From the NCBI GenBank assembly GCA_037447655.1, contig JBBHKE010001496.1, forward strand, positions 62,001-126,000: 64,000 nt of DNA. Reading direction: 5' to 3'. Position 1 is the stretch's first letter. Each line of letters begins with the position of its first letter. Both the position numbers and the translations under genes were made by a program. This DNA comes from Zygnema cylindricum. Taxonomy: Eukaryota; Streptophyta; Zygnematophyceae; Zygnematales; Zygnemataceae. The notes beneath the pieces were generated by a model. The model searched no databases and was not told where the DNA came from. It was given only the letters and a program-made list of their open reading frames with translations. This document shows positions 2,031-40,500 of the stretch, piece by piece.

Positions 2031-3620
2031 TCAGAGTTGATCTCTGTGCTGAGCAGCCTGTAAATTGCCCATGGCCAGAGGTATTTCCCGCTGAAATACC
2101 TTGGCCCGGTCGGCAATCAGTTTCTCTATAGTACCCCGGTTGTCCATCTCCGGAAGAACAACTGCCTGAGCCGACGCAGCCCCTGGTAGGATGGGATGTC
2201 GGCCGAAGAGAATGAAGTAAGGGCTATAGGAGTGGAGAGATGCCTGCCTGCTGAACCTGTACCCCATGGCAATCCAAGGCACCCGTGTGTCCCACTCCCC
2301 CAAATCCTCTTCGACCACATATTTCCGTAGTGACCGCTTCATTGTCCGTACGCACCTCTCGGCCAAGCCGTCGGCTTGGGGGTGGTCTCGCCTGGTTAAC
2401 CTGTGGTCAATGAGGCACTTTTCCAGAAGGTTAGAAAATTCTCCGGCAAACTCGGACCCCTGATCCGTCAGAACTTCGGCTGGTGTTCCAAATTGAGACA
2501 ACACTCTCTGCAAGAATGCGTCCGCGATTGCTTTGGACTCCTTTCGGGGAAGAACCACCAATTCAATCCACTTAGAGAAGTGTGCAATCATGACCAAAAC
2601 AAAACGATTTCCCCTCCGGCTAGTAGGAAGTGGTCCTAGCAGATCCAGTGACCATGTGTAAAACATCCCCAGGATGGGGAGGGAGTGAAGCTCAGTCCCA
2701 CCCTTTTTGTCAAAAGCTGCTTTTACCCGGTCACAGGAAGGGCACGTCTGCACCACACGATTGACCAGGGCCCGGAACCCATGCCACCAATACGACCCGG
2801 TGACTAGCGAGGTGGTTCGTTTCTGTCCGAAGTACCCGCATTGCTGGTGAAGCCGAACAATGAGCGTTTCTCGATATGCCAGAGGGGGAACCACTTTCCT
2901 TGTCCCATCGGCCCATTTCCCGAGAAGGATGCCTCGGTCCCATTCATAAGCCGCCATTCGGTTTTGAACACGGAACAATTGACTTCCGGCAAGGTGGGAT
3001 AGAGGAGAGCCCTTCTCGATAGATTGGAGGGAATCGCTGTCATTCCATATATCCTTCCGGCCGGCTCCAATGGGGGCCTGCCCCTCTTCATCTGCAGCAA
3101 AAGTTGACAGTTCTGCTTCTGCCCGAGGCAGCCAAATAAAAGCAGAGGAAGCCCGGATAAGTCCCAGGCTGAGCTCAGGGTCTTCGTCATGTTGCGCCCC
3201 AGTAGAGTCTCTGGTGGAAGGGTCCAGGTTCCTGCTGATTCCGTCAGCATTCCCATGAATCTCCCCGACTCTATGGACGATGTTGAAATCATATTCCTGC
3301 AAAATGAGAACCCATCTGGCCAGCTTTCCAGTCAATTTACTGTTCTTCATGATCCATTTGAGGGGCTGGTGATCTGTAATAAGGGTGAAGTGTACTCCAT
3401 AGAGGTAAGGTCGGAAGTGCTGGATGGCCCAAACCGCGGCGAGTAATTCCCCATGGTAACTGCTGTAATTTTCCTCGGCTCTGTTATTACTCCGGCTTGC
3501 GTAGGCAACTACATACTCAGCCCCTGCGTCGTCCAATTGAGCCAAAACTGCTCCCAATCCAAACCTGCTCCAATCTGTATAAAGGAAAAAGGGCCGCTGG
3601 TGAACGGGCATCTGGAGCAA
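2031..3620 (-). CDS. pol: Gypsy RNase H and integrase part of Pol
   Basis: 529 codons open. RNase H comes first: Asp16 in LYTDWS, Glu58 in HGELL, Asp83 in ITDHQPL and Asp126 in GNADGISRN are the expected catalytic residues. An integrase zinc-binding region follows at about 258-296 with His258 and the CPSC pair, but the second His is Tyr263 (CGYFG), so the zinc site is damaged. The integrase core has Asp326 (SLDLLGP), Asp386 (LTDQGSEF) and Glu421 (GLAERCV). The nominal start is arbitrary: the frame runs straight on from the RT at 3699-4571 through one TGA stop at 3699-3701. The product would cut RNA-DNA hybrids and join element DNA to the genome. Confidence 0.9.
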   Translation of the reverse strand: MLQMPVHQRPFFLYTDWSRFGLGAVLAQLDDAGAEYVVAYASRSNNRAEENYSSYHGELLAAVWAIQHFRPYLYGVHFTLITDHQPLKWIMKNSKLTGKLARWVLILQEYDFNIVHRVGEIHGNADGISRNLDPSTRDSTGAQHDEDPELSLGLIRASSAFIWLPRAEAELSTFAADEEGQAPIGAGRKDIWNDSDSLQSIEKGSPLSHLAGSQLFRVQNRMAAYEWDRGILLGKWADGTRKVVPPLAYRETLIVRLHQQCGYFGQKRTTSLVTGSYWWHGFRALVNRVVQTCPSCDRVKAAFDKKGGTELHSLPILGMFYTWSLDLLGPLPTSRRGNRFVLVMIAHFSKWIELVVLPRKESKAIADAFLQRVLSQFGTPAEVLTDQGSEFAGEFSNLLEKCLIDHRLTRRDHPQADGLAERCVRTMKRSLRKYVVEEDLGEWDTRVPWIAMGYRFSRQASLHSYSPYFILFGRHPILPGAASAQAVVLPEMDNRGTIEKLIADRAKVFQREIPLAMGNLQAAQHRDQL

Positions 3621-3698
3621 AAGAAGCTGCTTGAGGGAATCCTTCAGGAATTGGAACCCTATCTGCTGTTCTTCCTTCCACTGCCACTCCTGGTCCTT

Positions 3699-4571
3699 TC
3701 ACAACAATTGGTTCAAGGGTTGGGCGTGGCTACTAAATTTAGGAATAAACCGCCGGTAATAGTTGGCAAGGCCCAGGAAAGTACGAAGAGCAGAAATGTC
3801 ATGCGGGGGTGGAAGAGCGTCTAGTGCTGCCACCTTAACCATGTGGGGACCCACTGTCCCGGGAGTCACCTCATGACCCAGATAAATAATTTTCTGCACC
3901 CTAAAGATGCCCCTCCCCGGGTGACACTTCAAGCCCGCTGCTTGGAGTGCCTGGAGAACGATCTGTATGTGCTCCAAGTGTTCTTCGAATGTCTTGGAGA
4001 AAATGATAACATCGTCGATATAACATCGTGCGAAATCAATTCCCCGGAGAGCCTCGTCCATGGCCCGTTGGAATTTGGCAGGTGCATTCTTGAGGCCAAA
4101 TGGCATGTACAGCCATTCATATAGCCTGGATCCGGCCCAAAAAGCAGTCCTCTCTCGGTGTTTCGGCTCCATTGCTATCTGGTGGAATCCATTTTTCATA
4201 TCCAAAGTGGAGTAAATGGTAGCCCCAGCAAGAGAGTCGAAAATCTCTTCCGGGGTAGGCATAGGATAACGGTTGGAGATAGTAGCCGCGTTGAGCATCC
4301 GATAGTCCCCACACATCCGGAAATCTACAGTTTTTCCGGAGGAGTCTTTCTTTGGCGGGAGCACGGTTGGTGAAGCAAACCCATGTAGTCCTGTACTCTC
4401 CTGAACTAGCCCACCTTCCACCAAAGTCTGCACCTTTGAAGTGATGAACTCCTTCTCCTTGAAACTGAGAGGGTACTGTTTCTGCCAAACAGTAGCCGTC
4501 TCGTCGATCAAGTCAATCCGAAAAGGAGTCCCCTTATAGATCCCTACATCTGTGTAAGACCAGACGAACAC
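3699..4571 (-). CDS. pol: Gypsy reverse transcriptase
   Basis: 290 codons with the palm and finger motifs of Ty3/gypsy RT: Asp124 in STLDMKNGFHQI, the MPFGLKNAP motif at about 156-164, and the YIDD catalytic box at 184-187. The thumb and connection motif FLGLANYYRRF is near the C-terminus. It shares its frame with the RNase H and integrase stretch, from which one TGA separates it. Its start overlaps the end of the methyltransferase-linker stretch (4544-5314) in another frame, so it has no start codon of its own that I trust. It was made either by a -1 frame change near 4583-4589 or as part of a continuous frame that later lost a base. Confidence 0.9.
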   Translation of the reverse strand: MFVWSYTDVGIYKGTPFRIDLIDETATVWQKQYPLSFKEKEFITSKVQTLVEGGLVQESTGLHGFASPTVLPPKKDSSGKTVDFRMCGDYRMLNAATISNRYPMPTPEEIFDSLAGATIYSTLDMKNGFHQIAMEPKHRERTAFWAGSRLYEWLYMPFGLKNAPAKFQRAMDEALRGIDFARCYIDDVIIFSKTFEEHLEHIQIVLQALQAAGLKCHPGRGIFRVQKIIYLGHEVTPGTVGPHMVKVAALDALPPPHDISALRTFLGLANYYRRFIPKFSSHAQPLNQLL

Positions 4572-5314
4572 TGCCAGTTCTCTTTTAACAGCTCGGAGAG
4601 CCGGGCCTTCTGCTCTGGGTCTAGCTGTTTACCTAGAGTCCAGTCCATCTTCCCGGGTTCCACTGCCGCTAATGCTTCTAGTGGTTTCCCTAAGAGAGAG
4701 ATGTCAAAGTTCAGCTCTACCAGTGGGTCTGTCCTTTGTTCGGCTGTCAAAACGCTGCTGCTGACAACTTCCTCTAGGATGTCATGTACTGAGACTCCGT
4801 TCCCCCCCACTAAGGAAACTCCTGGGTCCAGTGTGCCATTGCTCCCCCCCACTGAGGAAGTTCCTGGGAATTTGGTGAAAGTGAATTTTTCCCTCCTTGT
4901 CTCTCTCCCCCCCTCAAGCTTGAGAGTTGCTTGCATGGCCAACAACTGTGGAGCTTGAAGGTATGTTGTCCGTGATTGTGGAGACTGAAGGCTGGAGAAT
5001 GCAAGAGAATGTTTCAGCACCCAGGAAATTGCATTTAAATCCATGCTTTGTCCGATTAAACTGCACCTTTTTGAAACCGATACCCCTGGCGCAGCTTTGG
5101 TACCCTGTTGAAAACCCATTGTTTGTTCCCGTTCTGTAATATTCGGCGCTGTCCACGTGGCGGTTGTACTCTCAAAGATCATTCCTGGTGCTCCCTTCCG
5201 GTAAGCGTGGCTTTTAGGAAAAGATACCAGAGTTGGAAGGGCCCTCCGTGGATATCCAGGCTGATTACAACAAAAGAAGGGTGCTTTGTCGGCTGTGATC
5301 ACCGGTGTGGCCAT
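4544..5314 (-). pseudogene. Methyltransferase C-terminal part and linker to RT
   Basis: 256 codons, in frame with the methyltransferase stretches at 5336-5788 and 5795-6115. Residues 59-68 (ITEREQTMGF) and 86-95 (LIGQSMDLNA) fit the late C5-methyltransferase motifs, where an ER..GFP-like block and a LLGN/LLG-like helix close the catalytic domain. Residues 100-220 are a low-complexity linker that I do not recognise. Residues 225-246 (LDPEQKARLSELLKEN) look like the conserved approach to gypsy RT. The frame ends at a TAG at 4544-4546, just after the point where the RT frame takes over. Confidence 0.7.
4583..4589 (-). promoter_or_regulatory. Candidate -1 slippery heptamer GTTAAAA
   Basis: On the minus strand the codons TTA AAA of the methyltransferase-linker frame are preceded by G, giving G TTA AAA in the phase a -1 slip needs. 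A slip here moves reading into the RT frame, which is open from this point. The heptamer is not a strong classical one, and no pseudoknot was checked. A lost base in a decayed copy is the simpler explanation. Confidence 0.25.
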
Positions 5315-5335
5315 TGGCCCCGGTCCGAGAATCTG

Positions 5336-5788
5336 TTAGACCGTGATGTTGGGATCCGTAACGTGTGTTCTCAACAGCTGTTGGAGGATTGGAAGAGGCA
5401 CCAAGTTGGTCCAATATGCCCGAACTCTGTGGGCTCTTGATCCGATCTGGGCTGCATCAAAAACTATGGGAGTCCCTAGAACCTTGGTCACTTGGTTCCA
5501 GCTGTTGACCACCTGTTTTCTCTTATCATCTGTGGGGTGAACGTTTTCCAGGACGTACCCCACTAGTGTGCCCTGGCGTTTGTGTAACCCTGTTATTAGT
5601 CTGGTCATTTGAAAGAATGTTCTGCTACAGACGTCCTGGTGTCCTCGGCCCCGTCCTGCTAACGAATACCCCTGGCATGCCCATCCAGCGACCACAAGGT
5701 CTACCCTTCCGAGCTCTTTCAGATGGGACTTCGTCATGTTATCCACATTCTGGGGAAGCGTGTGTTGAGAGTTAGACATGGCGGACAC
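5336..5788 (-). pseudogene. C5-cytosine DNA methyltransferase, catalytic core (DNMT3-like)
   Basis: 150 codons. Residues 32-42 (VVAGWACQGYS) are motif IV with the catalytic cysteine Cys38 (codon at 5675-5677); most family members have PCQ or PCN, and here the proline is alanine. Residues 78-83 (YVLENV) are motif VI, whose Glu contacts the target cytosine. Residues 116-128 (GSRAHRVRAYWTN) match motif VIII in the DNMT3 style (AHRARYFW) rather than the DNMT1 or bacterial QxRxR style. The expected reaction is S-adenosylmethionine-dependent methylation of cytosine C5 in DNA. It continues in frame from 5795-6115 through a TAA, and into 4544-5314 through another TAA. Its position between protease and RT shows that it travels with the element. 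The stops mean this copy is probably inactive. Confidence 0.85.
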
Positions 5789-5794
5789 CGGGAG

Positions 5795-6160
5795 TTACTG
5801 TGGGTAAAGTTGGTGCAGCTGTTGCAGGCGGTACTCAATGACTGCACGGGCGTCCGGGTCAATCTCGACTGCCGAGTAAGTTTCGATTTGGTATCCAGCT
5901 TTCAGGACGGCTTCTAGATCGGAACTAATGCCAGAAAATAGGGATAGAATCCTAAGTCCTGAAAGCGGGATTTGTAGTGACACCACTTGTCGATTAAAGT
6001 CTTTCCCTTTGTTAGGAACCGTTGGAAATTCCGACCGGGGGACTTTTGCTGCTCCGGGTGATATTGCAGCCAAGCTCCTGTCCACTTCTCGCCGAAGTGC
6101 GGCCATCTGTACCAATCGGTTCTGATACTCCCTTTCCCACCGCTTGGAAATAGGGAATTG
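5795..6160 (-). pseudogene. C5-cytosine DNA methyltransferase, SAM-binding N-terminal part
   Basis: Open stretch 5795-6115 (106 codons); the same frame is open back to the TAG at 6161-6163. Residues 54-64 (LRILSLFSGIS) are motif I, the FxGxG-like SAM-binding loop, although the last glycine is serine here. Residues 82-90 (AVEIDPDAR) are motif II, with the acidic residue that binds the SAM ribose. The domain is N-terminally attached to the protease with no separate promoter or start, so methyltransferase and protease were once one Gag-Pol protein. The TAA at 5795-5797 cuts it from the catalytic core. Confidence 0.82.
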
Positions 6161-6628
6161 CTAGATAGAATAAGCGATATCGTTAGAGTATTTGAACAGC
6201 TCCGAGGGGGTTGAGGGAGAGTAGACGGGATAGCATCCTGACACCGGAACAGTCGTTTTTCCCCGGTTCCACAAATCCAAGGGGACCACCACTTTTGTTC
6301 CTTCCGGATCCTCAGGGTCTGAGACTGTAACTTGTTCCTTCCATACGCTCAATTCCATGTTCAACCTTGTCCAAGTAGCCATACCCAGCAAAATTTCAAA
6401 TTGCTTACCTTCCACCACTAGGAAGGGAAGCCGAATATGCACGTGTTGGCCTGCGTTGTCAACAAATTCGATTTCCATGGCTTGTATGATCCCATATACT
6501 GGTTGGCTGCCACTCCTGACTGTGCTCAAGCATATGACACTTGGATTGATTTCTGGTCGGAGTTCCTCGGGCATTTGTTGTAACGCTGATGTAGTTATTA
6601 AGTTCGGAAGAGCTCCGGTATCCACCAC
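6161..6628 (-). pseudogene. Gypsy aspartic protease
   Basis: 155 codons. It starts within VVDTGALPNLI, where Asp-Thr-Gly is the catalytic triad of retroviral-type aspartic proteases, and the segment FEILLGMATW at about residues 78-87 fits the usual hydrophobic-Gly motif near the C-terminal end of the fold. The protease would cut Gag-Pol into its parts. It lies in the same frame as the gag zinc-knuckle region (6635-7891), separated by one TAG at 6635-6637, and as the methyltransferase, separated by a TAG at 6161-6163 followed by CAA. Confidence 0.8.
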
Positions 6629-6634
6629 TGCATC

Positions 6635-7891
6635 CTAGTACCCGCTGTATCCATTAAGTTTAAAATTTACCGTCCTGTTGAGAATAAGGGCCACCGAAAG
6701 GGCTTTATAATCCCTATCTGCCATAAAGGTTTTTGGTTCTGCCGACATGAAGACGGTTTTGGGCGGTTCTATCAACGCGACCATTTTCCTCCTAGTGTGA
6801 ATTTCTTCCCCTAATGCCTGAATGAGGGTTTCTTCGGGCAGATTGTGGGAGGAAGCCAGCGTTTTGACATGCGTCAAGGCGTAGGGCATTAAGTGTCTTA
6901 CAAGCATAACTGTCGGTTTGGAGGAAGGAGGGAGAGCTTTGGGCGATGAAATGGGTGAGTCCTCGTCTTCCGATTTCTCCTGTTCCCCCCCCCCTCTTTT
7001 CTCACTCTCTGCGTCAGAATTCCCCGTAGGAGGTGTAACTGGCGGATATGTGGACGGTCTCTCAGCCATGTATCTGTCGAACCACTCTTGATCTGTTTCA
7101 GTGGTTGAAGTTTTCTTGTAATCTTCAAAACCGGGAGGAAGTTTCTTCGGAGCCGGAGGAGGCGGGTCAGTCGGCTTGAGTCCCAGTCCAATGTTACTGT
7201 TCAGAAGGACTGGTCGCGGGGTAAAGGATAAGGGACCTGTGGCTTTCCGACTGTGGTCCTTTTGTTCCATCGGTTGTTTATCTTTTCTTTGGGAGGACGT
7301 TATAGAGCGCAGTTGCCCGCGACTGTCCCCTACACCAACGTTCCATGCTCCGGACAGAAATGTTCGAGCATGATGAACCTTTGGAGGCTCCATATCCCAA
7401 CCCATCAGGTCATCATCATCTCCACCCACCGTGGTCTGCTGCTCCAGTTCCGCTAGCTTTTGTAGCAGTTCTTGTTTTTGTTTCTGCAGTTTCTGTGCCG
7501 GCGTAAGAGGTTGGGGAGTGCGGGCAGAGGATCTCAGTCGGAGAGCGGCCAGTTCTGTTGCCAAAGCGGCCAACTGAGTGCTCTGTTGCTGAATGATATG
7601 TTCCGGTGTCAGTCTGCTAGGACCCGGTTCATTTGGAGATTGTCCCCAGGGATAGAAAAGTTGCAGTGGTAGAGGATAAACGGCAGTTTCCCCTTTGTCG
7701 GTAAACAATGCATACTGCATCATCTCCCTCGGAACCCCATTTTCCCTAAAGCATTGCCCTTCTTTGTGGCCCATCAACCCACAAGCTTCACATTTGGACC
7801 CTTCAGTAGTGTACTTCCCCCTTAGCTCATTAGAGATTTGAGCGTCATCGAATTTCGGAAGTCGGATTTGTCTCAACTTGGATTGAGACAT
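6635..7891 (-). CDS. gag: Gag C-terminal region with CCHC zinc knuckle
   Basis: 418 codons. Cys34, Cys37, His42 and Cys47 (CEACGLMGHKEGQC) form a perfect CX2CX4HX4C retroviral zinc knuckle, which binds element RNA. A glutamine-rich, probably coiled-coil stretch follows at about 90-150. A proline- and acid-rich linker fills 230-340. The last 60 residues lead into the protease across one TAG. The frame is shared with 7982-8185 and 8195-8653 upstream, so this is an internal part of a longer Gag-Pol. Confidence 0.75.
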   Translation of the reverse strand: MSQSKLRQIRLPKFDDAQISNELRGKYTTEGSKCEACGLMGHKEGQCFRENGVPREMMQYALFTDKGETAVYPLPLQLFYPWGQSPNEPGPSRLTPEHIIQQQSTQLAALATELAALRLRSSARTPQPLTPAQKLQKQKQELLQKLAELEQQTTVGGDDDDLMGWDMEPPKVHHARTFLSGAWNVGVGDSRGQLRSITSSQRKDKQPMEQKDHSRKATGPLSFTPRPVLLNSNIGLGLKPTDPPPPAPKKLPPGFEDYKKTSTTETDQEWFDRYMAERPSTYPPVTPPTGNSDAESEKRGGGEQEKSEDEDSPISSPKALPPSSKPTVMLVRHLMPYALTHVKTLASSHNLPEETLIQALGEEIHTRRKMVALIEPPKTVFMSAEPKTFMADRDYKALSVALILNRTVNFKLNGYSGY

Positions 7892-7981
7892 TTTGGCGGT
7901 TTCAGAGCGTGGAGTAGGTTTATAAGTTTCCTTAGTGACCGGGGTTCGGTCTCCTCCTCCGCCTCCTTGCTTGCGCTCTTG

Positions 7982-8194: not shown

Positions 8195-8889
8195 TTATGT
8201 CTGTTCGTCGTGGCTGAGCGATGTTTCCCCGGCGAAACCTGCAAAGTTGGCTCTGGATTTCTCAGAAACAGCCTTTTCTCGTGCCTCGCTATTAACAAAA
8301 TGATCATACAATTTCATAGCCGCCAATGAAATTTCTTGAGCTGTGGGATTTCGATCGTGTATAGCCTGACTGGCACTCCAATTGTCCAGAGCTGCCTGTC
8401 CCGTTGGCCCGAAGGAATTTCGAATAGCGACATAATATTTGGTGGCCATAGCCGGTGTTTTGATGGTGGACAGTTTGGTCTTCTGGCAGAGGCTGGAGAG
8501 GCGGTTAAATAGCGTTTGGGGAGTTTCATTCTTCAAACAGCGGAAGTCTGTGAACTCCTTCATGGCAGTTTCGTTCCTTTCTGTGTAAAGGAGTCTCCAA
8601 GCGTCCTGAAGAGTGGTACAGGGATTAGGATTGGCAACCATTCGGGTGGCCACTTCGGCTGCCTGTACAGCCTGAAGGTGGTTGACATAGGCCCTGCCTT
8701 GGGCCTAAAGTTTCATATCCATGGTGAAAGTGGGGGTGAGAGGGGCTGCGGCTGCGGCGGCCAGGTCGACTGCTGCCTGAAGAGCCTCGGCGTCCAGATC
8801 TCGATCCGATATTTTGATACTGGGGGCCATCAACAAAGGTTGACGCTCCTTGTAATCGGCCAAAGCTCCTCAGGCTAGATAATTTACCA
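8195..8889 (-). pseudogene. gag: Gag capsid-like region
   Basis: The main open stretch is 8195-8653 (152 codons); the same frame extends back to about 8,889 through a TAG at about 8706-8708 and a TGA near 8866-8868. Its helical, charged sequence before the zinc knuckles, with a block such as ETPQTLFNRLSSLCQ, is what a Ty3/gypsy capsid domain looks like. I assign it by position and composition, not by a firm motif. Upstream gag is in another frame. Confidence 0.6.
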
Positions 8890-10245
8890 TCATCGGAAAC
8901 AGGGTTGTTTCAAAATCTGCTGGAATGGCCCCTCCTCGTATTTGTTGATTTCAGATTGGGTGAACGACTTCCAAAGAAGTTCGAAATCCGAGAAAGCGAT
9001 TCCCGAGCTGTCTCCTATAAAAATCCTTAAGTCCCCCATTTCTTTGTCCTTCTCTGCAAGGTTGGTGAACTGTGAAGAGGATGGTCCGGTTGGGCTAACA
9101 AACTGAACCGGTGAGATTACCCCTGGATCTGCGTCGTCTGGCTTGGGTTTGCCTCCTGCTCCGGTAGAGGGAGCGGTCTGGCGAGAGATGGCACTCCCCC
9201 CCACTGAGGATGTTCCGGTCTCTGGTGGGATCGTGAGATGACCAGTATCTCCCTGGAGTTGGCCCTTGGGAAACGAGGAGCTTATCACCTTGGGAAAAGC
9301 AGCCAAAAGTCCTGCTCCTCTATACCCAGGAGAGGCCCGTTCCTCCCGGTGAATTGTTTCCACCGAGGGAATGTGGAGAATAGGTTTAGTCACCGGTGGT
9401 ACTTGAGGGATTGGTGGAGAAGGGGATGGAGAAGACCGAGGACTACGAGGGAAAGGTGTCTGTTTGCGTGTACATCTTTTGGAGGTTCCTGGTGGAGGAG
9501 TTCCTTCGCTGGAACCGGGAGAACATCGGTGAGGAGGAGAGTTGGCAGGAAAGTCGTGCTTGTAGGGTAAGACGGGTGGTCCCGGTGACCCACGGACTGC
9601 AGCGGCCGGAGAAACAGAAGGAGAAGGAGAGGATGCCTGAGGTGGCGATGGAGGAGGAGTAGTAAGTCCGAGGGAAATGTGTAGTCTCCGGTCTGGTTGT
9701 AGCTGCACCACTGCCTCCACGGTAGAAGATCCCTTGACCGAGACAATGGTAGGGAGATCTGTAGCCGCGGCTACCGGATTACTCGGCAAATCTGCACCCA
9801 ACCCCTTTTTGTTAGATCTTGTTGTTCCCCCCCCTTCCTGCTGAAGTGGGGACTCCGCTCTATGTTCTGAAGAAGTCTTGGGAGATGGAGTCCGAGTTGG
9901 GGCAGTCTGCTCGGTAGGTTGTCTCTCAGCAAAGGGCCCTCTCTCTCTTGGAACAGATCCCGGTCCACTAAGGATTCCCCCTGATTTCCGTCTCCCCTCC
10001 CTAATTAGGAACAGTTCTTGTTCTAGAGCCCTCTTCCGTTCTTCTTCTAGGGCCTCCAAATCTATGGTGACGGGTCCAACCCCCGCTGTAGCCTGACTCT
10101 GGGATTGGAGGATCTCCACCAGTTTTTGCGTGCTGCTTACCACCCTTGAGAGATCCGCAATCCCCAAACCGGGTACCTCGGGGTCCGTAGGCCTCGAACG
10201 CCATAGTCCTTCGGATGGTCGGACAACAGGTGCGGAAGGAGACAT
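8890..10245 (-). CDS. gag: Gag N-terminal half, proline/serine-rich
   Basis: 451 codons. The first 90 residues contain an acidic, possibly coiled-coil segment (EALEEERKRALEQEL). Residues 110-340 are dominated by Pro and Ser (TPPPSPPQASSPSPSVSP and similar), as in a disordered region. The last 60 residues turn helical and lead towards the capsid-like region after a -1 change of frame near 8,893. It joins the upstream stretch 10,249-10,563 in the same frame through one TAA. I recognise no enzyme domain. Confidence 0.6.
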   Translation of the reverse strand: MSPSAPVVRPSEGLWRSRPTDPEVPGLGIADLSRVVSSTQKLVEILQSQSQATAGVGPVTIDLEALEEERKRALEQELFLIREGRRKSGGILSGPGSVPRERGPFAERQPTEQTAPTRTPSPKTSSEHRAESPLQQEGGGTTRSNKKGLGADLPSNPVAAATDLPTIVSVKGSSTVEAVVQLQPDRRLHISLGLTTPPPSPPQASSPSPSVSPAAAVRGSPGPPVLPYKHDFPANSPPHRCSPGSSEGTPPPGTSKRCTRKQTPFPRSPRSSPSPSPPIPQVPPVTKPILHIPSVETIHREERASPGYRGAGLLAAFPKVISSSFPKGQLQGDTGHLTIPPETGTSSVGGSAISRQTAPSTGAGGKPKPDDADPGVISPVQFVSPTGPSSSQFTNLAEKDKEMGDLRIFIGDSSGIAFSDFELLWKSFTQSEINKYEEGPFQQILKQPCFR

Positions 10246-10248
10246 AGA

Positions 10249-10563
10249 TTATAGGGAAATTGAGGCAGAAGGAAAGAATGGCTCTTCTTTGACTAGGGGA
10301 GCAAATCGACCTTTTCTGTCCCGATGGTTGAACCGGAAATCTCTCTTGGGCTCAGGTAACTTCCGCTTGCTACTCCCTTCCCTGGTTCGGCCCCGAGAAG
10401 TTGCTCTGCCCCTAGAAGGTCTACTGGTAGCAGTTTCTTGAGATATGGTGGGCTGCGGGTAGGAAGTTGATGGTCCTCCCTGTTGCTCCGGTGCTGAGGT
10501 TGGGGAGCCGCTCTCCGACGAACTACTCAGTACCTCTACTACACCTCCCACGGGGCATACCAC
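10249..10563 (-). pseudogene. gag: Gag N-terminal segment 2
   Basis: 104 codons, in frame with both neighbours (single TAG before, single TAA after). It is basic and Ser/Arg-rich (RPSRGRATSRGRTREGSSKR), which suggests nucleic-acid binding or disorder. No known fold is visible. Codon use and GC content match the rest of the element. Confidence 0.5.
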
Positions 10564-11016
10564 CTAGGCTCGGTCTGACCTGGCCACTCGCTGCACCAAC
10601 TCCTTCTTAACCTTCAATTCATGGAGATTATGAAGGGCTAAGATTTCCTTGCGACCTGGCCGGTTAGGGTCAGACACGATCTCTGGATCTATGTATATCT
10701 CTGTTATCGGTGCCTTGGACCTGGTAAAGCGACCAATTTCAGGAAGGGGACCAGGGATCGCTTCCTTGTGTGCCAACCCCTTTCTACGGCTTTTAGGAGA
10801 AAGGGGCGGCCTCTCCGCCCTCTCCGTTGCCCAAGCTCGGGCTGACTCGGACAAAGTTGGAAAGTTCTCGGGGGAAAAGACAAGTGGAGGTGGAGGAGAG
10901 GGTCGCCCCTCTGGCTGCGTTGGAGGAGTTTTTACTGCAACCTCGGCAGGCATCTCTCCCCTAAGAAACCGCTCTACGTGTAAAGGGGAGCCAAATGGGG
11001 GTGCTTCCTCAGGCAT
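10564..11016 (-). pseudogene. gag: Gag N-terminal segment 1, likely Gag start
   Basis: 150 codons opening with ATG at 11,014-11,016, about 180 bases after the 5' LTR, which is a sensible place for the Gag start. Pro-rich and charged, no recognised domain. It ends at a TAG (10,564-10,566), after which the same frame stays open. The two in-frame stops in 8890-11,016 are therefore point defects in one long reading frame rather than true ends. Confidence 0.55.
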
Positions 11017-11196: not shown

Positions 11197-12384
11197 TGTG
11201 CTACTCCGTTGGAAGCCCACGAAATGCCACACTCCCAGCTACTCTCCAAAGAATAGGAAGGAAATGAGAGTTGTCTAATCCTTTCTGCAAAACTCCGGAA
11301 AAACCCAAAGATGACCAGAAGAGTGTGCAAATAACTCCCACGCAGAAATATAGAAATAACAAATATCGGCTTTTCAGATTAAACAATATCACCTTGCCCC
11401 AGAGAATGGAATTAAAGATAGAAATGAATGATAATGGAGAAGGGAATTCACATACCCCGGAGTGCAACGATGACCAAACTCATCAGATGAAAACCTCTCC
11501 TAATGGCCTCGAAGTCACGTATGAGTCTCCCTCAACCCTCCCGGTTCTACCGCAAGGATCCGACAAGACTCTTCTTAGTTTCAAACATCGAAAGTCCAAA
11601 CGGCCCAAAGAGGAGATAGTGCCAACTACCCACCCGTGCTACGGTCTCCACAAAAGACAATCCAAAACAAAGATGGCAATAGAGTCAACGACACAATGCA
11701 ACCGTTCTCCAACAGAAAGATTGATTTAATTCTCTGGGGGTTTTCTCAGGAGACAGTACTGAAAAAGCAAACTGTCTCCTTCGGCCCCAAGTGTCTTATA
11801 CAACCAGAGCTTGTCCTACTGCAAGTTCCAAAGTCAAAGCAATGTGACAAGCCAATCAGCGGTCAGCCATTATTATCGTACGCACATAAGACCAAACAAA
11901 CTGTACTACACTCAGGGCTAAAAGTTAGACGACTGGTCCCGGCTGCAATAGCGGCCGAGGGTCCTCCTAGAATACACAAAATGGAAACATAGTTCTGACT
12001 CGACGTGAAACCGCCTAACTTTGACCCAAAGTCATTAATGTTTGGCCCGGCTGTTGGGCCTAAACTAACATCCTTCTGACAGCTAATAGTAGGATCTACG
12101 GGATAATCTCAAAGGTTACGTGTCGTTCTCTAATGTATCCGTCTACTAGAGCTACATAGAACACACAATATAATGGAGCAGACACTTTGCACCGGACTAA
12201 CTCCGCCGTTCGGCCTCCGTTTCAGGTGAACTAAATTGCGTAGGGCTCCAGAGTGAAAACATAAAGATCTGATCCGGCTAGTTGTCCTCTTCCTTCTCTG
12301 TGCGCTAGAGTCCGTACAAAGTGGAATGAGGCCCCGGAACTCCTGGGAGTGCAAATGTGCCGACGATGCACATGAGCTTGACAA
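11197..12384 (-). repeat. 5' LTR of the gypsy element, truncated
   Basis: Matches 155-1339 of the left LTR and then stops at 12,384, missing roughly the last 200 bases (the first 200 of the LTR in element orientation). Beyond 12,384 the sequence is copia integrase. The loss means a deletion or recombination, since a plain insertion would leave a full LTR. Confidence 0.85.
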
Positions 12385-13148
12385 GTTTTATCTTTTACTG
12401 CCCTTGTTTCTTGCCTGTTTCTTACATAAACTGCACAATTCCTAGCCTCTGCCCAAAACTTGTAATCTATGTCCATATCAGCCATCATTGTCCTAGCACA
12501 CTCTGCTATAGTCTTATTCTTCCTCTCTGAAACACTGTTTTGTTTCGGAGAATAAGGAATAGTAAGCTGACGTGAGATTCCATGCAATTTTAAGAATTCT
12601 GCAAACTCATTAGAAATGTACTCCTCTCCATTATCAGATTTGAATCCTGCTATCTTTCTCTCATGCAAATTTTTAACCCAAGCCTTATACTCGTTAAATT
12701 TTGCAAAGACTTCATCCTTACTTTTCAAAAAATAAACTATAGTAAACCTACTATAGTCATCCGTAAAAGTAAGCATAAACTTAACCCCTCCCACAGATGA
12801 GTATATAGATGGCCCCCATACATTTGAATAAATTAGTTCTAGTACCTTGCTACTTCTATAATCAGTTTGAGAATGGAAAGGCAACTTATAGATTTTTCCC
12901 ATCGCACAACCATCACATACATTTGATGCTAGTTTTTGACTAATTTTTACACCTTCCACCATTTTCTGATTTACCATCTTTTGTAATCTATCATAATTCA
13001 CATGTCCTAAACGTTTATGCCATAAATCACAATCACTGATTACACTTGAGTACATAACATCATTGTCATTATCATTTGCAAGACCCAATCGATACAAATT
13101 GTTTCCACAAGCAAATCCCTCTGCAACTATTTTCCCACACTTACTCAC
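12231..13148 (-). pseudogene. Copia A integrase, fused to gypsy LTR sequence
   Basis: 305 codons open. The GAG-pre-integrase block with LWHKRLGHVNYDRL and the CDGC pair is present. Core: the first catalytic Asp is Asn (SNVWGPS), Asp is kept in KSDNGEEY, and Glu in NSVSERKNK. After KDKT the last 51 codons (12,231-12,384) are antisense gypsy LTR, so the reading frame is an accidental chimera. It cannot be an active integrase. Confidence 0.85.
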
Positions 13149-13163
13149 TGTTTTCTTCCCATT

Positions 13164-13676
13164 TTAAGATATAGTTTTAAAACATTTCTTTTCTTCCACT
13201 GAAGTAGAGAAAAAGTTTCTTTTGAATGCTGGGACATGCAACACATCTTCTAAAACCCTTTTCACAGGTTTTCCCTCTACATTCAACATAAGTGACACCC
13301 TCCCCTTTGCTTTCGACTCAACAAAGGTATCATCACTAAAATAAATTTTGACAAGAGAGGTAGATTGAATACTTTCAAAGGGATGGCGACTACGGCACAT
13401 ATGGGCAGATGCACCCGAGTCCATAATCCATTCGTCTTCCTCCACGCCTTCAGTTGCTTGTGCCATCGCAAAGTATTTATTTTCGCTGTTATCGGGAAAG
13501 CTGCTCACATCCTCCACTTGAAGTGCGTTGGAAAATGCTGTTGGGCGTCCATATGACGTAGATGGAACTAAGCTTTGGTCCCAACCAGAGCAAAAATTTC
13601 GCCTAGCTTTAGCTCTCTTATAGGCATGACACATTCTGAAAACAAGGCCTTTTTCATCACAGTAATAGCATCTCAA
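13164..13676 (-). pseudogene. Copia A zinc-knuckle remnant and protease
   Basis: 170 codons. It starts at CYYCDEKGLVFRMC, a knuckle that lost its histidine. Around residues 85-95 is WIMDSGASAHMC, the copia protease active site with Asp-Ser-Gly. The rest fits the usual copia region between protease and GAG-pre-integrase. It is separated from the integrase by a stop and a few codons. Confidence 0.8.
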
Positions 13677-14335
13677 AGGTGACCTTCTAGAACCACTACC
13701 TCTACCACTGCAACTACCACTACCACTGCCAATCTTAGAGTCTGAAAATTGGTTAGCTAGTGCCTAAACAGACTTACTACTACCTCTTTGTGAAATCTGG
13801 TTAGCTTCTTTGCTCAAAATAAACTGTATTGCTAATGCTATGTTCCACTAACGTTGTGGAAGAGGCGTAAGCCTATCCATGGCTCCCTTTTATTCATCAG
13901 GTAAAGTTCTCATCAATAACATAGCCTGCTGAGGTGGTGAAAAGTCCCCACCTGCACTTGGACTCTGAAGGAACAACCTTTTTAAGCATGACAATGATGT
14001 GACATACTACCTCGTGAATACATAAATTCAAATATTTGAGTGGCTATTTTAGTCTGCACAGTAACATCTAGCTGAACATACATAGCACCTACGCTAAACC
14101 CAACTTCACAAGCTTTTTTCAAATCAAGATACGACATTACCAAATCTTTTGTCATTGCATGTTTCAAGACGTTGAGGCAGTGGAGATTCTTCTTTCTCCA
14201 ATCCGGTGCCGTCACATCGACACTTCCTTCCACAATGGGTGAAAAGTCCCTCTCCTCGAAATATGAGCTCAGCATATCTTCCCAATATAAGAAGTCAGTT
14301 CCATCAAAAATAGATGATTTGGGCGGTGGGCCCAT
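13677..14335 (-). pseudogene. gag: Copia A gag
   Basis: The open stretch 13,982-14,335 (117 codons) begins at MGPPPKSSIFDG, immediately inside the LTR; the primer site is read as the codons for VMGPP. WEDMLSSYFEE and the helical residues after it match copia Gag. The part 13,677-13,981 is the same gag broken by frameshifts and stops, ending in a Gly/Ser-rich run before the knuckle. Confidence 0.75.
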
Positions 14336-14339
14336 AACC
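14325..14339 (-). other. Primer-binding site of copia A (initiator tRNA-Met anticodon arm)
   Basis: On the minus strand GGTTATGGGCCCACC follows directly after the LTR end TTCAACA. It is the complement of GGTGGGCCCATAACC, the anticodon stem and loop of plant-type initiator tRNA-Met. This is the half-tRNA primer type known for Drosophila copia. Confidence 0.75.
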
Positions 14340-14963
14340 TGTTGAAGGTCATGGGCATTCTAACTTGGTAGTGTTCCACTCCAACTAGGCGTCACACTTG
14401 CACCAGCAGGGACTAATCCATTAGTGGATATGGGAGCAGAAGTAAACCCAAAGAAAAATACCTATTTGACTAGATTTATGTTGTAAGATATGTACCTTTA
14501 AGTGAGAGAGGGCTTACAACTAGACAAACATATACCCCAATCAAAATAAGGACAATAGAACAGAAAAACACTTTAAAGTGCATTTAGTGCTCTCATTTCC
14601 TTAAACTTTGTGTAGAATGTACATTCTGTGTATAATTGATCAATCTTAATTGAACTAAAAACTCAAAAGATCTAGAAAACATCTAAAACGTATATACAGG
14701 GTTCACCTTAATATCTACTAACAAAAATCAAAGTACTTGGACCAGAATTGTGTAGAAACAATATCTACACCCAAAAAATCTGTAAGATATTTATCACATC
14801 CACATTCATTGGCGGCCCTACACACTAATTTACTTAAAGATAACTATTCGTGTAGTTACTACAAAAATCCACACTAAATTTGGTCAATATTCAACAGTTG
14901 GTGTCCAAAATTACTATAAGTCTTAAACTCTAATTTCTAAGACTTACAAAAGCTTACTTTTCA
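14340..14963 (-). repeat. 5' LTR of copia A
   Basis: 624 bp, TGTTGAAGGTC to TTACTTTTCA on the plus strand. It is homologous to 16,210-16,890 and to the inverted piece 18,351-18,663. The primer site flanks the low edge, and the high edge (14,963) abuts RT sequence of another copia. The region that corresponds to the gag N-terminus lies inside the LTR; its ATG is ATA in this copy and one stop interrupts it. Confidence 0.85.
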
Positions 14964-18350: not shown

Positions 18351-18663
18351 TGAAAAGTAAGCTTTAGTAAGTCTTAGAAATTTGAGTCTAGAACTTATAA
18401 TAATTTTGGACACCAACTGTTCAATATTGACCAAATTTAGTGTGGATTTTTGTAGTATCTACACGAATAGTTATATTTAAGTAAATTAGTGTGTAGGGCC
18501 GCCATTGAATGTGGACGTCATAAGAATCACCCGGATTTTTAGGGTATAGATATTGTTATTGGATAATTCTGGTCCAAACACTTAGATTTTTGTTAGTAGG
18601 TTGTCTGGTGAACGCTGTACATACATTTTAGATGTTTTCTACATCTTTTGAGTATTTAGTTCA
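18351..18663 (+). repeat. Inverted copia LTR fragment
   Basis: Starts TGAAAAGTAAGC, the reverse complement of the inner end of the LTRs at 14,340-14,963 and 16,210-16,890, so it lies in the opposite orientation. Only about 313 bp are left; it merges into satellite at about 18,663. It begins exactly at an LTR terminus inside copia C RT, so a plus-strand relative inserted there and was later truncated. Confidence 0.75.
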
Positions 18664-20631
18664 AGTTGTGTTGGAGACATGGTTTAGGGTTTTTTTATAA
18701 TCTCATTTTTGCATTAACAATAAACTTTGTTTGTTAATATTTTTGTTGTTAACAGAAACACAAATTTGTGTTGGAAGCATAGTTTAAGGTATTTTTTTAC
18801 TGATTTTGTTAGCCTAATAATGAACGATGTTCTTTACAAGTAATTATTGTTAGCGCAAACACAAATTTGAGTAATAAACATGGTTAAGAGTTTATTTTAA
18901 CTATCTTTGTGAGCGCGTTCCTACCTTTATTGTTGTTATCGCAAACACAAAGTTGTGTTACAAACATTGTTCGAAGTTTATTTAAATGTTTTTATGAGCG
19001 CAAACAACAAACGTTGTTTGTTATTAATATCTTTGTAAGCGCTAACCCAAAATTAAGTTAAAGACATTGTTTAGGGTTTTTTTTTAATTCTCTTTCTTTG
19101 TGTTAACAATAAACTTTGTTTGTTAATATTTTTGTTTTAAATGCTAACACAAATTTGTGTCGCAAACATAGTTTAGGGTTTTTTTTTTACTATTTTTGTT
19201 AGCGTAATAATAAACGTTGTTTGTTACAAGAATTTATTGTTAGCGCAAACACAAGTTTGAGTTATAAATATGGTTGAGAATATATTTTAAATATTTTTGT
19301 AAGCGTTAACAATATAAAGTGTTTGTTACCGCTATTGTTGGTATTGCAAACACAAAGTTGTGTTACAAACATGGTTTGGGGTTTATTTTACCTCTCTTTG
19401 TGAGCGCGAACATTAAACATTGTTTGTTATGTTTATATTTGTTAGGGCAAACCCCAAGTTGTGTTAGAAACATGGTTTAGGGTTTATTTTATTTTGTTTG
19501 TTTGCGTTAACAATAAAACTTTGTTCGATAGTATTTTAGTTGTTAACGCGAACTTAAATTTGTGTTGCAAACATAGTATATGGTTTTCTTTTATTTTTTT
19601 TGTTAGCGTAATAGTAAACGTTGTTCGATACAAAAAATTATTGTTAGCACAAACACAAATTTGAGTAATAAACATAGTTGAGAGTTTATTTTAACAATTT
19701 TTGTGAGCGCTTACAATATAAAGTGTTTGTTACCATTGCTATTGTTAAACCAAACACAAAGTTGTGTTACAAACATGGTTCGGAGTTTATTTGACCTCTA
19801 TTTGTGAGCGCGAACAATAAATGTTGTTTGTTTCAAATATCTTTGTTAGTGAAAACCTCAAGTTGTGTTAGAAACATGGTTTAGGGTTTTTTTTTAATTT
19901 ATTTGTTTGCTTTAACAATAAAATTTGTTCATTAATATTGTTGTTGTTAATGGAAACATAAATTTGTGTTGCAAACATAGTTTAGGGTTTTTTTTTACTG
20001 TTTTTGTGAGCGAAATAATGAGCGTTGTTTGTTACAATAAATTATTGTTAACGGAAACAATAATTTGTGTTGCAAACAAAGTTTAGAGTTTTTTTTTATT
20101 GTTTTTGTTTGCGTAATAATGAACATTGTTCGTTACAAAAATTTAATGTTAGCGCAAACACTAATTTGAGTGATAAACATGGATGAGAGTATATTTTAAC
20201 TATTTTTATGAGCGCTAACAATATAAAGTGTTTGTTACCACTATTGTTGTTACCACAAACATCAAAGTTGTGTCACAAACATGGTTTGGAGTTTATTTTA
20301 CCACTTTTGTGAGCGCGAAGAATAAACGTTGTTTGTTATAAATATATTTGTTAGCGCAAACACAAATTTTTGTTAGAAACATGGTTTAGGGTTTTTTTGA
20401 AATCTATTTGTTTGCGTTAACAATAAATTTTTTTCGTTTATATATTTGTTGTTAACGCAAACACAAAATTGTGTTCCAAACATAGTTTAGGGGTTTTATT
20501 TAGTGTTTTTGTTGGCGTAATAATGAACGTTGTTTGTTAGAAGAAATTATTGTTAGCCCAAACACAAATTTGAATAATAAACATGGTTGTGAGTTTAATT
20601 TAACTATTTTTGTGAGCACTAACAATATAAA
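18664..20631 (+). repeat. Higher-order satellite array, left block
   Basis: Tandem AT-rich repeats built from four diverged monomers of about 101 bp, giving a period of about 404 bp (for example GTGAGCGC at 19,400 and 19,804). Monomers share CAAACACAAATTTGTGTT, which contains a 16-base palindrome, and two carry GTTTAGGGTTT. One period (19,804 to 20,309) is longer by one monomer. Open frames here are by chance. It continues at 40,501 after the inserted element G. Confidence 0.9.
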
Positions 20632-22871
20632 TGAAGTTCTATGACCACTAGCACAGGTGGAGTTGCAACAGTAGTCGTAGATGTTGACATGATTAAAACA
20701 GAAGCTAATAGGTATCCTTTTAATCAGTTGTTTTACAGACACCACAAAGTCCAACCTTAAGATTGATTCACACAAAATTAAGCAAAGATATAGAGCACCA
20801 TATACATTCTCAATTCCAAATAGACCTAGTAAACCATAAGATATAGCATCTGGAAGTTTCCCAAAAACTACACTTACACTATCATAGTCCCAAAACTGGA
20901 TAGACAAATTTCACTAAGTGTTGTTTTGAAAAGTTAGTTTCGTGCGTTCGCGGCGTTTCGTGCATACTGACGCGATTTTAATGCGTAAGTACTAATAGGA
21001 TGTAATGTGGTGGTTCGAATGGATTTGCGCATTGGGGGAGTACATGAAGAAGGAAAATTAAAGGGACGTGAAGGATTAATTGAGTGGCGCGGATTGCGTT
21101 AAGAAATGGACGGGGGATCGCGAAGCGATCCGATGTGAAATATTCGTAATGATTGAAATTGTACGCCGGCCGTACGAAACATAATGTGACAATTGCATTA
21201 ATGAAAAAGGGACGCCGGTGGTACGGCGCATTTATTTTGGACAGGTGTACCTTATTTGCGACGAGCGACATGGGACATTTGTGGCGAAATGACATGTACC
21301 TTATATGTGACAAGCCGCATTTATTGAAATGGACGCGGTTTCCGTACAGAATGAAATTTGGATATTACGGTGTCATTTCGGCAAGTGGATTGAGTTATAT
21401 TTAAATGCGGACAACGTCCGCCGCTATTAGACAAAGGTTTTTTTTTTATGTATTATTAAGTGGTTTAGGGTTTCAACACCTTAATTAGTGTGTGTGTAGT
21501 GTCGGTCATGTAGACAAGTGTACGCTTATGATGTTTAACTCTCAAGTGCAGGCTTACGATTAAATTACTATTAGTAGTAGTTTAATACGCTTAAATATGA
21601 CTTAGTAACAGTTACGTGATTGGTTGACAGCTTATAAATCTATATATAGCTATGAGCTTTGTTAGCAAATTCATCAATGCTAGTTAGAAAAGTAGGCACC
21701 AAAGATGTAGTAATTTAGGGTTGTCGATTAGGTTAAGCTTTTAAAAGATACATTGATTATCAGATTATACTTTTGTTTATGTGTGATGCATTCTTTATTA
21801 ATATTTATATATGTTATTTTATGTTTGTTTGTCATGCATTATGCATGTATATTTTTTGTTGTTTAATGCATCTGTGTATGCACTTGTCCTAGGGTGGTCT
21901 AAGGTTTTTCTGCAGATTTGCAAACCTATTGTGTGTTAGGTCTATGTGAAATGGTCGCAAGTTTGCAGACCTATGGTGTGTTTAATTTGTGGTTTTGAGA
22001 GACCTATGGTGTGTCTGATGGGGATTTTCTGGTAATGCATCTGGGAATGCATTCACTTATTAAAAGGGCATTCATTTCAAAGGATTGTTCATTCGACTAG
22101 ATTTGCTTAGCTTTACAATTGATAGTTTGGGTCACTTCTACGCTCTATTGTAGACCAAAGAAAAATACTAAGTCCTAAACTTTATACACTTAGTGGGTGT
22201 CTACTGCTACCTGTTAAATCAGGTGTCTACACGTAGAATAGTGGTACTGTTTAGTGAAACAACAAAGTACCTAAACTGTACGTCACTGCATCGATAGTAC
22301 TTCCAAAACCCTAATTGCTACTTGTCGATAAATCAACAGTGAAACACTACTTAATAATGCGCTAAACTACAAATAACTATTCTCTAAATATTTATAGATA
22401 CAAACCGTACAATTTAGATTGCCGTTGCTTAGTCAACATTGGTCACAAAAGTCCAGCCGATTGTGGTCATGTAGTAAGAAAACTCCTCCACTCCGGCACT
22501 TTGTACTTTGGCACTTGTGGTCTTTGCTCAAATCGCGTGCGTTGACTTGGTTTGCATCAACGATTCATAATTGATCTCGTAGAAGACATTTCCTGAATGT
22601 TCAGTTCGGTCTTCATCTGTCCGATTCACCCAAACCGCTCGTTTGATGAGCGACATATGTATGTGGGCGTTGGCGCCATTTCGAAATACATGTACTGTCT
22701 TCAAGTGCCGACGCGTGTCCCTGTAGAAGTTCTGTACACTCAAATATCTTTATATTACTCTCACACTATCAAAGGTAAGTACTACTTCTGTTTTAGACAA
22801 AAAATATTCTAAGTCCCGTTGTTTTCCTCACAACCCCATCTACTGATGACAAAGCATTCAAAAACCAACAT
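20632..22871 (-). repeat. 3' LTR of G, interrupted by a solo LTR
   Basis: The LTR parts are 20,632-20,918 and 22,168-22,871 (about 990 bp without the insertion and one copy of the duplicated CTAAG). The outer end begins TGAAGTTCTATGACC and the inner end is AAAAACCAACA. It is homologous to the E LTRs (58,092-59,300). Just inside, the minus strand reads AAAGCTTTAAGGGAA, a polypurine tract. Confidence 0.85.
20919..22167. mobile_element. Solo LTR inside the G 3' LTR
   Basis: 1249 bp starting TGTTGTTTTG and ending AAAAATA, flanked by CTAAG at 20,914-20,918 and 22,168-22,172. When it is removed, the flanks join into the sequence found in the E LTR (CTAAGTCCTAAAC). It holds TATA-like motifs at 21,633-21,649 on the plus strand and no coding sequence. 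The TG start and 5-bp duplication fit an LTR left after recombination; the 3' end would be TA instead of CA. Element family unknown. Confidence 0.65.
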
Positions 22872-39914: not shown

Positions 39915-40500
39915 TGTTGTTCTATGACCACTGGTGAAGGTGGAGCTGGAGGAGTAGTTGTACACGTTGACGTTATTAAAACATAAGCTAACAAGTATCT
40001 TATCAATCAGCTATTTCACAGACACTACAAAGTCCAACCCAAAGGTCTAATTCACACCAAATTAAGCACAAAATAGAGCACCAAGTCCAGCCAAAAGTGG
40101 TCATCTAGTACAACAACTCCTGAGTGCGTACGCCATACTTCGTCATTTGTGGTTTCCGCTCAAATCGCGTACATTGACTCAGTTTACATCAACGATTCAT
40201 AATTGATCTCTTACAAGACATTTCCCGGATAATGGTTCAGTCTTTGTCCGTCCGATTCACCGAAATCGCTCGTTCGATGTGCAACATGTGTATGTGGGCA
40301 TCAGCGCCATTCCAAAATACCTACACTATCGTCAAGTGTTGACGCGTGTCCCTTAAGAAGTACAATGCACTCTAATGTTTTCTACTACTGTCACACAATC
40401 AAAGGTAAATACTTCATCTGTCTTAGACAAAAAGTATTCCAAGTCATATTGCTCTCCTCACAATCCCATCTACTAAGGACAAAAAATTCAAAAACCAATA
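39915..40500 (-). repeat. 5' LTR of G, internally deleted
   Basis: TGTTGTTCTATGACC at 39,915 to AAAAACCAATA at 40,500, 586 bp. Compared with the 3' LTR, about 400 bp are missing near 40,088 (between AGAGCACCA and GTCCAGCC). The last C is T (TA instead of CA). The ATAAA target copy follows at 40,501. Confidence 0.85.

Follow-up and report, generated by a model that had tools for sequence, protein, structure and literature searches.

A DNMT3-like methyltransferase between protease and reverse transcriptase in Ty3/Gypsy retrotransposons of Zygnema cylindricum

Introduction

Why would a genomic parasite carry an enzyme of the kind with which its host silences DNA? The question is raised by a stretch of 64,000 nucleotides from the alga Zygnema cylindricum (assembly GCA_037447655.1, contig JBBHKE010001496.1, positions 62,001 to 126,000; the whole stretch is henceforth referred to as ‘the window’), the minus strand of which contains a Ty3/Gypsy retrotransposon with a DNMT3-like C5-methyltransferase (MTase) domain in its pol region. 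In the passages cited here, KnitGypsy-Dnmt3 from Klebsormidium nitens is described as having been acquired independently by that lineage (de Mendoza et al. 2018, PMC5890265), a 2025 paper again names streptophytes and dinoflagellates as hosts (PMC12344493), and green algae and charophytes are listed among the hosts of DAM- and DCM-encoding Ty3/Gypsy and DIRS elements, the kinds not being separated (Morozov et al. 2019, PMC6338049). A sequence-only reading of the window had proposed a gypsy element of the charophyte type with the MTase between protease and reverse transcriptase (RT), and here we report a computational analysis of this element, its copies in the genome and its relatives elsewhere.

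Results

The region at 4544-6160 almost certainly encodes a DNMT3-like C5-MTase. A PF00145 search of the region returned a significant C5-MTase match rather than none, located in the piece at 5339-5794 (E = 2.9e-7, 30.7 bits, cut-off 22); the pieces at 5798-6160 and 4547-5335, searched singly, gave no MTase family match. With X in place of its stops, the region matched DNMT3A in the PDB (E = 1.5e-10) and a public 685-residue protein with MTase and RT domains (E = 9.6e-112), and it is nearer to DNMT3 than to DNMT1/CMT, DRM, DNMT2 or bacterial MTases. The motifs quoted in the sequence-only reading (FSGIS, ACQGYS, ENV, AHRVRAYW, EREQTMGF and LIGQSMDLN) are all found, in order, in the minus-strand frame running from 6160 to 4544. 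Motif order is rearranged in DRM enzymes; here it is not (I-IV-VI-VIII-late). The proposed extent does hold the MTase, but the domain proper spans approximately 4950-5960, with two in-frame stops in the window copy, and the remainder is leader and linker; the C-terminal part of the MTase and the linker to RT (4544-5335) have matches in other copies. A first structure model, from 3 sequences, was discarded (predicted local distance difference test score, pLDDT, 35.6) and a second was built from 25 sequences. Scans with the MTase alignment of collections of viral contigs and of genome contigs confirmed nothing.

The flanking domains place this MTase in a Ty3/Gypsy pol, between protease and RT, as the sequence-only reading had proposed. 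Upstream in the sense direction is an aspartyl protease with a DTG motif (6161-6634; PF13650, E = 0.0019, below its cut-off), and downstream are RT (3699-4628; PF00078, RVT_1, 8.3e-28), RNase H and DDE integrase (2031-3698; PF17917, 7.1e-37; PF17921, 4.8e-12; PF00665, rve, 2.2e-12) and a C-terminal pol region (1593-2021) with a PHD finger at approximately 1608-1742 (PF00628, 6.1e-5, 23.4 bits, cut-off 24), all on the minus strand. RT, RNase H and DDE integrase are of the Ty3 type, with a match to the structure of Ty3 Gag-Pol (7q5b, 2.6e-29). The tyrosine recombinase of DIRS elements was looked for among the Pfam matches and no recombinase family was present, the DDE integrase (PF00665) standing in its place.

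Copies of the element are abundant in the genome assembly (352.8 Mb, 2689 contigs). A PF00145 search listed 123 matches (782 first-look candidates), the best-ranked 19 of which were examined with 10 kb each, and 18 of these 19 are MTase-bearing Gypsy elements. In 15 of the 18 an RT follows on the same strand (none was seen in the examined stretches of L010, L012 and L026), the window protease was recognised upstream in 13 and PHD is present in 12. The MTase core of the window has at least 150 matches in the genome (1284 candidates) and its RT at least 128 (3695 candidates); of the 128 RT matches listed, 67 are preceded on the same strand, at a distance of 659-1315 bp, by a listed MTase match, and none has one downstream or on the opposite strand. 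United, the two MTase lists give at least 222 distinct places, one of them a known host gene. Copies with the MTase upstream of RT are therefore many rather than absent, and recurrence of the architecture in the genome and in public proteins ruled out a chance open frame or an assembly chimera.

We distinguish three families: family 1, the window type, with L021 and L026 as more distant members; family 2 (L012, L020 and L027), the MTase pieces of which are 39-54% identical to the window; and family 3 (L013, L014, L024 and L025), at 33-46%. The sequence-only reading proposed a search for intact copies, and unbroken frames do occur: L015, a family 1 copy, has an unbroken 1520-residue frame from MTase to PHD, a family 3 copy has a 2395-residue open frame from gag to PHD, and MTase, RT, RNase H, integrase and PHD share a single open frame in L015 and in L024. 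The nineteenth locus, L016, holds around position 3000 (G000:C514:126680-126928) an exon of a host chromomethylase, with a match of 1.6e-28 to the structure of a maize enzyme, which we take to be ZMET2; as chromomethylases are a green-lineage family, this places the host in the green lineage. At G000:C961:71707-72591 an RT match lies within an open frame of 5743 residues, which may reflect either masked sequence or a frame fusion of exceptional length.

The copy in the window is dead and decayed, a point that the sequence-only reading did not make, just as it did not mention the PHD, the conserved UAG or the split repeats. Its coding frames are interrupted by stops at 6635-6637, 5795-5797, 5336-5338, 4544-4546, 3699-3701, 2031-2033 and 2022-2024, and the frame changes before RT. 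The claim that the MTase motifs are in frame with protease and gag is correct as to the frame, but the frame holds only if read across stops. Since the L015 frame is unbroken from MTase to PHD, the interruptions at 5795-5797, 5336-5338 and 4544-4546, like the frame change before RT, are lesions of the window copy. An alternative genetic code (TAR read as glutamine) would open the MTase frame and was rejected, as TGA stops stay in RT and integrase and other copies are open under the standard code.

Unlike the stops inside the MTase, which the L015 frame lacks, the UAG at 6161-6163, at the exact boundary of protease and MTase and followed by CAA TT, is common to related copies. We read 15 junctions of families 1 and 2 (14 in 13 stretches, and the window): the stop is TAG in 14 and TAA in one (L026), and 13 have TAG CAA TT, with TAG TAA TT in L018. 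The leaky stop context of the tobacco mosaic type is UAG CAR YYA. The resemblance of TAG CAA followed by pyrimidines to this context suggests readthrough in families 1 and 2, in which case the MTase would be made in small amounts, as part of Pol, and packaged along with RT.

The MTase is under purifying selection, which is weaker than that on RT and, for the core, about equal to that on PHD. Ratios of nonsynonymous to synonymous substitution (dN/dS) were computed pairwise with our own Nei-Gojobori code with stops masked, the pairs not being independent. Between subfamilies (0.4 ≤ dS < 2), the median dN/dS was 0.14 for the MTase core (22 pairs) and 0.20 (25) and 0.32 (7) for the other MTase pieces, compared with 0.07 for RT (10), 0.17 for PHD (12) and 0.10 for protease (6); the two gag segments gave 0.60 and 0.59.

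The PHD region after the integrase is present in all three subfamilies, and in a family 3 copy it exceeds the PF00628 cut-off (1.5e-9). The family 3 finger is closest to those of PHF12, BAZ2B, KDM5, WSTF and PHF21A, with a likeness to that of UHRF1 too. Several of the first five read histone H3 unmethylated at lysine 4 (H3K4). Among homologous proteins with an integrase, PHD follows it in 52 of 65; some of the proteins lacking PHD are truncated, and in P0047 the tail resembles a PHD.

Three protein searches gave 86 distinct proteins (P numbers; source labels include jgi, ena, lgn, ncbi and eukprot). They include relatives in the liverwort Marchantia polymorpha (P0006, P0010, P0016 and P0020), in Closterium (P0027, P0045 and P0085), in K. 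nitens (P0039) and in the chlorophyte Haematococcus lacustris (P0056 and P0084). The 62 proteins with both MTase and RT fall into two architectures: Type I, as in the window, in the order protease, MTase, RT, integrase (16/62), and Type II, in the order RT, RNase H, MTase, integrase (46/62). In the unrooted RT tree (67 rows) the two types lie on two sides of one branch with support 98, or 99/97 in a careful tree of 57 rows from which 10 long or near-duplicate rows were dropped. One branch likewise separates the types in the unrooted MTase tree (96 rows, support 99) and in a careful version of 71 rows (100/99) that omits 25 outgroup, unassigned, long or near-duplicate rows; ten MTase rows, those from Marchantia among them, count as Type I by the protease preceding the MTase only, their RT part not having been seen. 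MTase and RT thus seem, from these trees, to have travelled together since the two types split. When rooted with a DNMT3A fragment, the sole DNMT3 outgroup, Type II comes out within Type I, next to the Closterium-like group but weakly supported (81); the domain order of the window would then be the older. P0039 lies on the Type I side of both trees, distant from the window within Type I. The label ‘charophyte-type’ therefore stands in that the window element is of one class with that of K. nitens, but is too narrow given the Marchantia and Haematococcus relatives. Overall, the relatives found in algae and in a liverwort suggest that MTase-bearing Gypsy elements are old and widespread.

Catalytic motifs are kept across both types: CQ..S in 32/37 Type I and 47/48 Type II sequences (79/85 overall) and R.R..W in 35/37 and 47/48, respectively. 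In motif IV of the window, alanine precedes the catalytic cysteine, where relatives mostly have proline or glutamate. Glutamate replaces the proline in 12/37 Type I and 38/48 Type II sequences; such a replacement is unusual for C5-MTases.

The remainder of the element, also on the minus strand, consists of gag and terminal repeats. The proline-rich N-terminal region of gag (8890-11016) lies in three frames (10564-11016, 10249-10563 and 8890-10248) and has matches in all five upstream stretches of other family 1 copies, one with a 771-residue open frame. A capsid-like segment (8195-8704) has tblastn matches in other copies and no Pfam family above cut-off, and the C-terminal part (6635-7981), with a CCHC knuckle spotted by eye (CEACGLMGHKEGQC), has matches in other copies as well. 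Instead of the two plain long terminal repeats (LTRs) of a Ty3/Gypsy element, we found split repeats. The 5' terminal repeat A1 (11197-12384, 1188 nt) is 93.2% identical to A2 (154-1339), from which it differs at 79 of 1186 aligned sites; B1 (1341-1550, 210 nt) is 97.1% identical to positions -56 to 153, that is, to B2 (1-153), which is cut by the window edge and runs 56-57 nt on into the left flank (L009). In sense, the order is A1, gag, protease, UAG, MTase, RT, RNase H, DDE integrase, PHD, polypurine tract, B1, A2, B2. The polypurine tract (GAGGGGGGGG in sense; 1551-1560) is directly beside B1, and it is in the same place in L011, L023 and L024. Rfam and tRNA scans of the window gave no matches, and no TGG-type primer site was seen downstream of A1 on inspection by eye. 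Just upstream of A1, L035 (sense 38-890) holds an open frame resembling, by eye, a non-LTR RT.

The split arrangement recurs. B1-A2-B2 is found in 8 of 10 copies with a B repeat (the window, L011, L017, L019, L022, L023, L024 and L025) and A1 is upstream in 7 of 8 copies tried (the window, L011, L015, L022, L023, L024 and L028, not L025). B2 ends in GACA in 7/8 and A1 starts with TGTC in 5/6 read. The inner junction of B1 and A2 is the exact palindrome GACAGCTGTC in five of eight copies (L011, L019, L023, L024 and L025) and is one base off it in L017, L022 and the window. A1 ends at the start of coding and B1 begins directly past the polypurine tract, and the A1 and A2 of L024 show no difference over 931 nt.

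Elsewhere in the window are arrays of a ~101-bp satellite (18662-20632, 40496-42507 and 43363-49890), with higher-order periods of 202 and 404 bp and in both orientations, which are possibly centromeric. Ty1/Copia-like coding pieces (open frames judged by eye) and several mutually related dispersed repeats occur at 12231-14412 and 15121-62060.

Discussion

The results show the architecture of the element, its DNMT3-like fold, its copy number, the purifying selection on it, its kinship with the K. nitens element and its spread over several hosts of the green lineage. The explanation that we favour, and to which we give about even credence as a whole, is that the window holds a decayed Ty3/Gypsy copy, flanked by split repeats, the Pol of which, behind Gag-protease and a UAG, ran through MTase, RT, RNase H, integrase and PHD, and the replication of which would have involved methylation of its own cDNA, PHD-guided integration and a circular intermediate. 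Ribosomes would mostly stop at the UAG to give Gag-protease, and occasional readthrough would give Gag-Pol, which would package the MTase together with RT and integrase, so that it may meet the cDNA of the element itself. There the MTase would methylate the cDNA, probably at CG by analogy with the DNMT3s of dinoflagellate retrotransposons, and the new copy would enter the nucleus already methylated and host-like. The PHD, which occupies the position of the chromodomain in chromoviruses, may then guide integration to chromatin with unmethylated H3K4. The proposal that the MTase acts on the element's own cDNA falls a little short of an even call. Still wider, and in our judgement unlikely as a whole, is the view of an ancient Gypsy lineage, present in chlorophytes, streptophyte algae and at least one land plant, that combines a DNMT3-like writer and a PHD reader with replication through a permuted two-repeat circle, cut by the DDE integrase at an internal palindrome, with readthrough rationing in some subfamilies and with pre-methylated copies. 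If pre-methylation is true, the parasite would be using a silent state that it installs itself as its strategy of transmission.

Since B1 follows the polypurine tract and A1 ends at coding, ordinary reverse transcription would give BA-coding-BA. Joining the ends of such a cDNA would produce a circle with an exact A2/B2 junction, and a DDE integrase cutting that circle at GACA^GC^TGTC would yield the A-coding-B-A-B form. Such a cut would leave a two-base overhang, which is typical of 3' processing by retroviral integrases. The repeat layout and its junction thus suggest that a permuted two-repeat circle was inserted by the DDE integrase, a possible DDE-integrase counterpart of DIRS-type circular replication. 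Target-site duplications seen by eye were TTGG (4 bp) in L024 and AGG (3 bp) in L023.

Several observations weigh against parts of this account. With regard to the circle, B1 in L015 and L028 is followed by unrelated DNA without A2-B2, and no B repeat was found with family 1 and 3 queries in L013, L014, L018, L020, L021 and L027, stretches that reach past the last coding match and some of which are truncated elements; no target-site duplication was seen by eye in four of the six copies with both ends read (the window, L011, L015 and L028). With regard to readthrough, the frame of family 3 continues from protease into MTase without a stop, so that readthrough would be a feature of subgroups and not general. 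As for the PHD, the Closterium-like Type I group (P0026, P0027, P0049, P0055 and P0085) has integrase tails of 148-194 residues and no PHD. Close copies (dS 0.02-0.4) give higher dN/dS values (MTase pieces 0.45, 0.29 and 0.40, RT 0.20, PHD 0.26, protease 0.43, gag 0.54 and 0.53), as is expected because dead copies are included. Window-type copies have an observed/expected CpG ratio of 0.63-0.66, no different from the 0.66 of the remaining window sequence (the sole control region), and so bear no footprint of extra CpG methylation; the ratio is 0.89-0.94 in family 3 and 0.71 in one family 2 copy. Finally, the KnitGypsy DNMT had no activity in yeast, a result its authors judged inconclusive in the passage cited (PMC5890265).

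The two deviating 3' ends (L015 ~7409 and L028 ~7407 in sense), which complete an A1-coding-B1 form, could be recombination products or insertions of one-repeat circles. Together with the few clear target-site duplications they would fit a non-replicative origin of the A-coding-B-A-B layout, from tandem LTRs or later recombination. We consider such an origin quite improbable, since eight copies of two subfamilies, the MTase pieces of which are only 33-46% identical, share this layout and a junction that either is GACAGCTGTC or is one base off it, and since the Fig. 4 legend of PMC5890265 states a DIRS-like repeat structure for the K. nitens element.

What the MTase acts on is a separate matter. 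It may, rather than methylating free cDNA, act on host chromatin at the insertion site with PHD as the reader and so reinforce silent integration havens. This is in keeping with MTase and PHD in one polyprotein, with the position of the MTase between RNase H and integrase in Type II (46/62 homologues with MTase and RT) and with the likeness of the family 3 PHD to the BAZ2B, KDM5, PHF21A and UHRF1 fingers; given that the MTase is far from the integrase in the architecture of the window, we regard it as rather unlikely. A defence of the host against DNA viruses or rival elements has been proposed for transposon methylases (Morozov et al. 2019, PMC6338049), and the hosts named are mostly algae; in the passages cited, that idea goes with a lack of such methylases in land plants, which the Marchantia proteins contradict, and we hold this role to be very improbable. 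At least as hard to sustain, and in our view slightly the less probable of these last two, is a passenger that lacks a function and has survived by chance while its family decays: stops occur in many of the listed copies and that of the window is dead, but the MTase is under purifying selection, CQ..S is kept in 79 of 85 sequences, open frames that include the MTase reach 2395 residues, and the MTase has been kept on both sides of the split between Types I and II. Methylation of the element's own cDNA is the role that we favour, and at least 150 MTase-core matches in one genome provide a natural comparison for asking why a parasite carries a host-silencing enzyme.

Among the papers listed in our literature searches, which covered neither subscription journals nor preprints, we found no report of PHD in the integrases of DNMT-bearing Gypsy elements or of DNMT-Gypsy elements in Marchantia, Closterium or Haematococcus, and no description of the conserved UAG or of the GACAGCTGTC repeat junction; a word search of the main text of PMC5890265 did not return PHD. 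PMC6338049 states, in the passages cited, that land plants such as tracheophytes lack methylase transposons, with which the liverwort relatives are at odds, at least for a liverwort.

Chromoviruses are Ty3/Gypsy elements with a chromodomain on the integrase. They resemble the window element in having a chromatin-reader module at the integrase end, and the window element differs from them by PHD in place of the chromodomain, by its MTase and by its split repeats. Type II elements of the order RT-RNase H-MTase-integrase-PHD (H. lacustris P0056 and public proteins) share the same domains, a related MTase and RT and the PHD after the integrase; they differ in that the MTase is between RNase H and integrase, and the main branch of each tree separates them from the window element. 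According to the passages cited from PMC5890265, SymbioDIRS-Dnmt3 of dinoflagellates shares a Dnmt3-type MTase in Pol, A-coding-B-A-B repeats and the occurrence of two domain orders, but has a DIRS-type RT and a tyrosine recombinase where the window element has a Ty3-type RT and a DDE integrase. The window element belongs to the published KnitGypsy-Dnmt3 kind: both have a Dnmt3-type MTase in a Gypsy Pol frame, placed before RT (P0039) and under purifying selection, and the DIRS-like repeats with Gypsy domains in the Fig. 4 legend there correspond to A-coding-B-A-B here. The PHD and the conserved UAG may set it apart from KnitGypsy-Dnmt3, for which the comparison was with the partial protein P0039, and its host is another one, with at least 150 MTase matches. 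Our results extend the published kind by one more host genome, in which the family is very large, and by a second architecture; they also add the PHD, the UAG kept between protease and MTase, the junction of the repeats and the relatives in Marchantia and Haematococcus. What was a case from one charophyte becomes a green-lineage class of elements with two domain orders.

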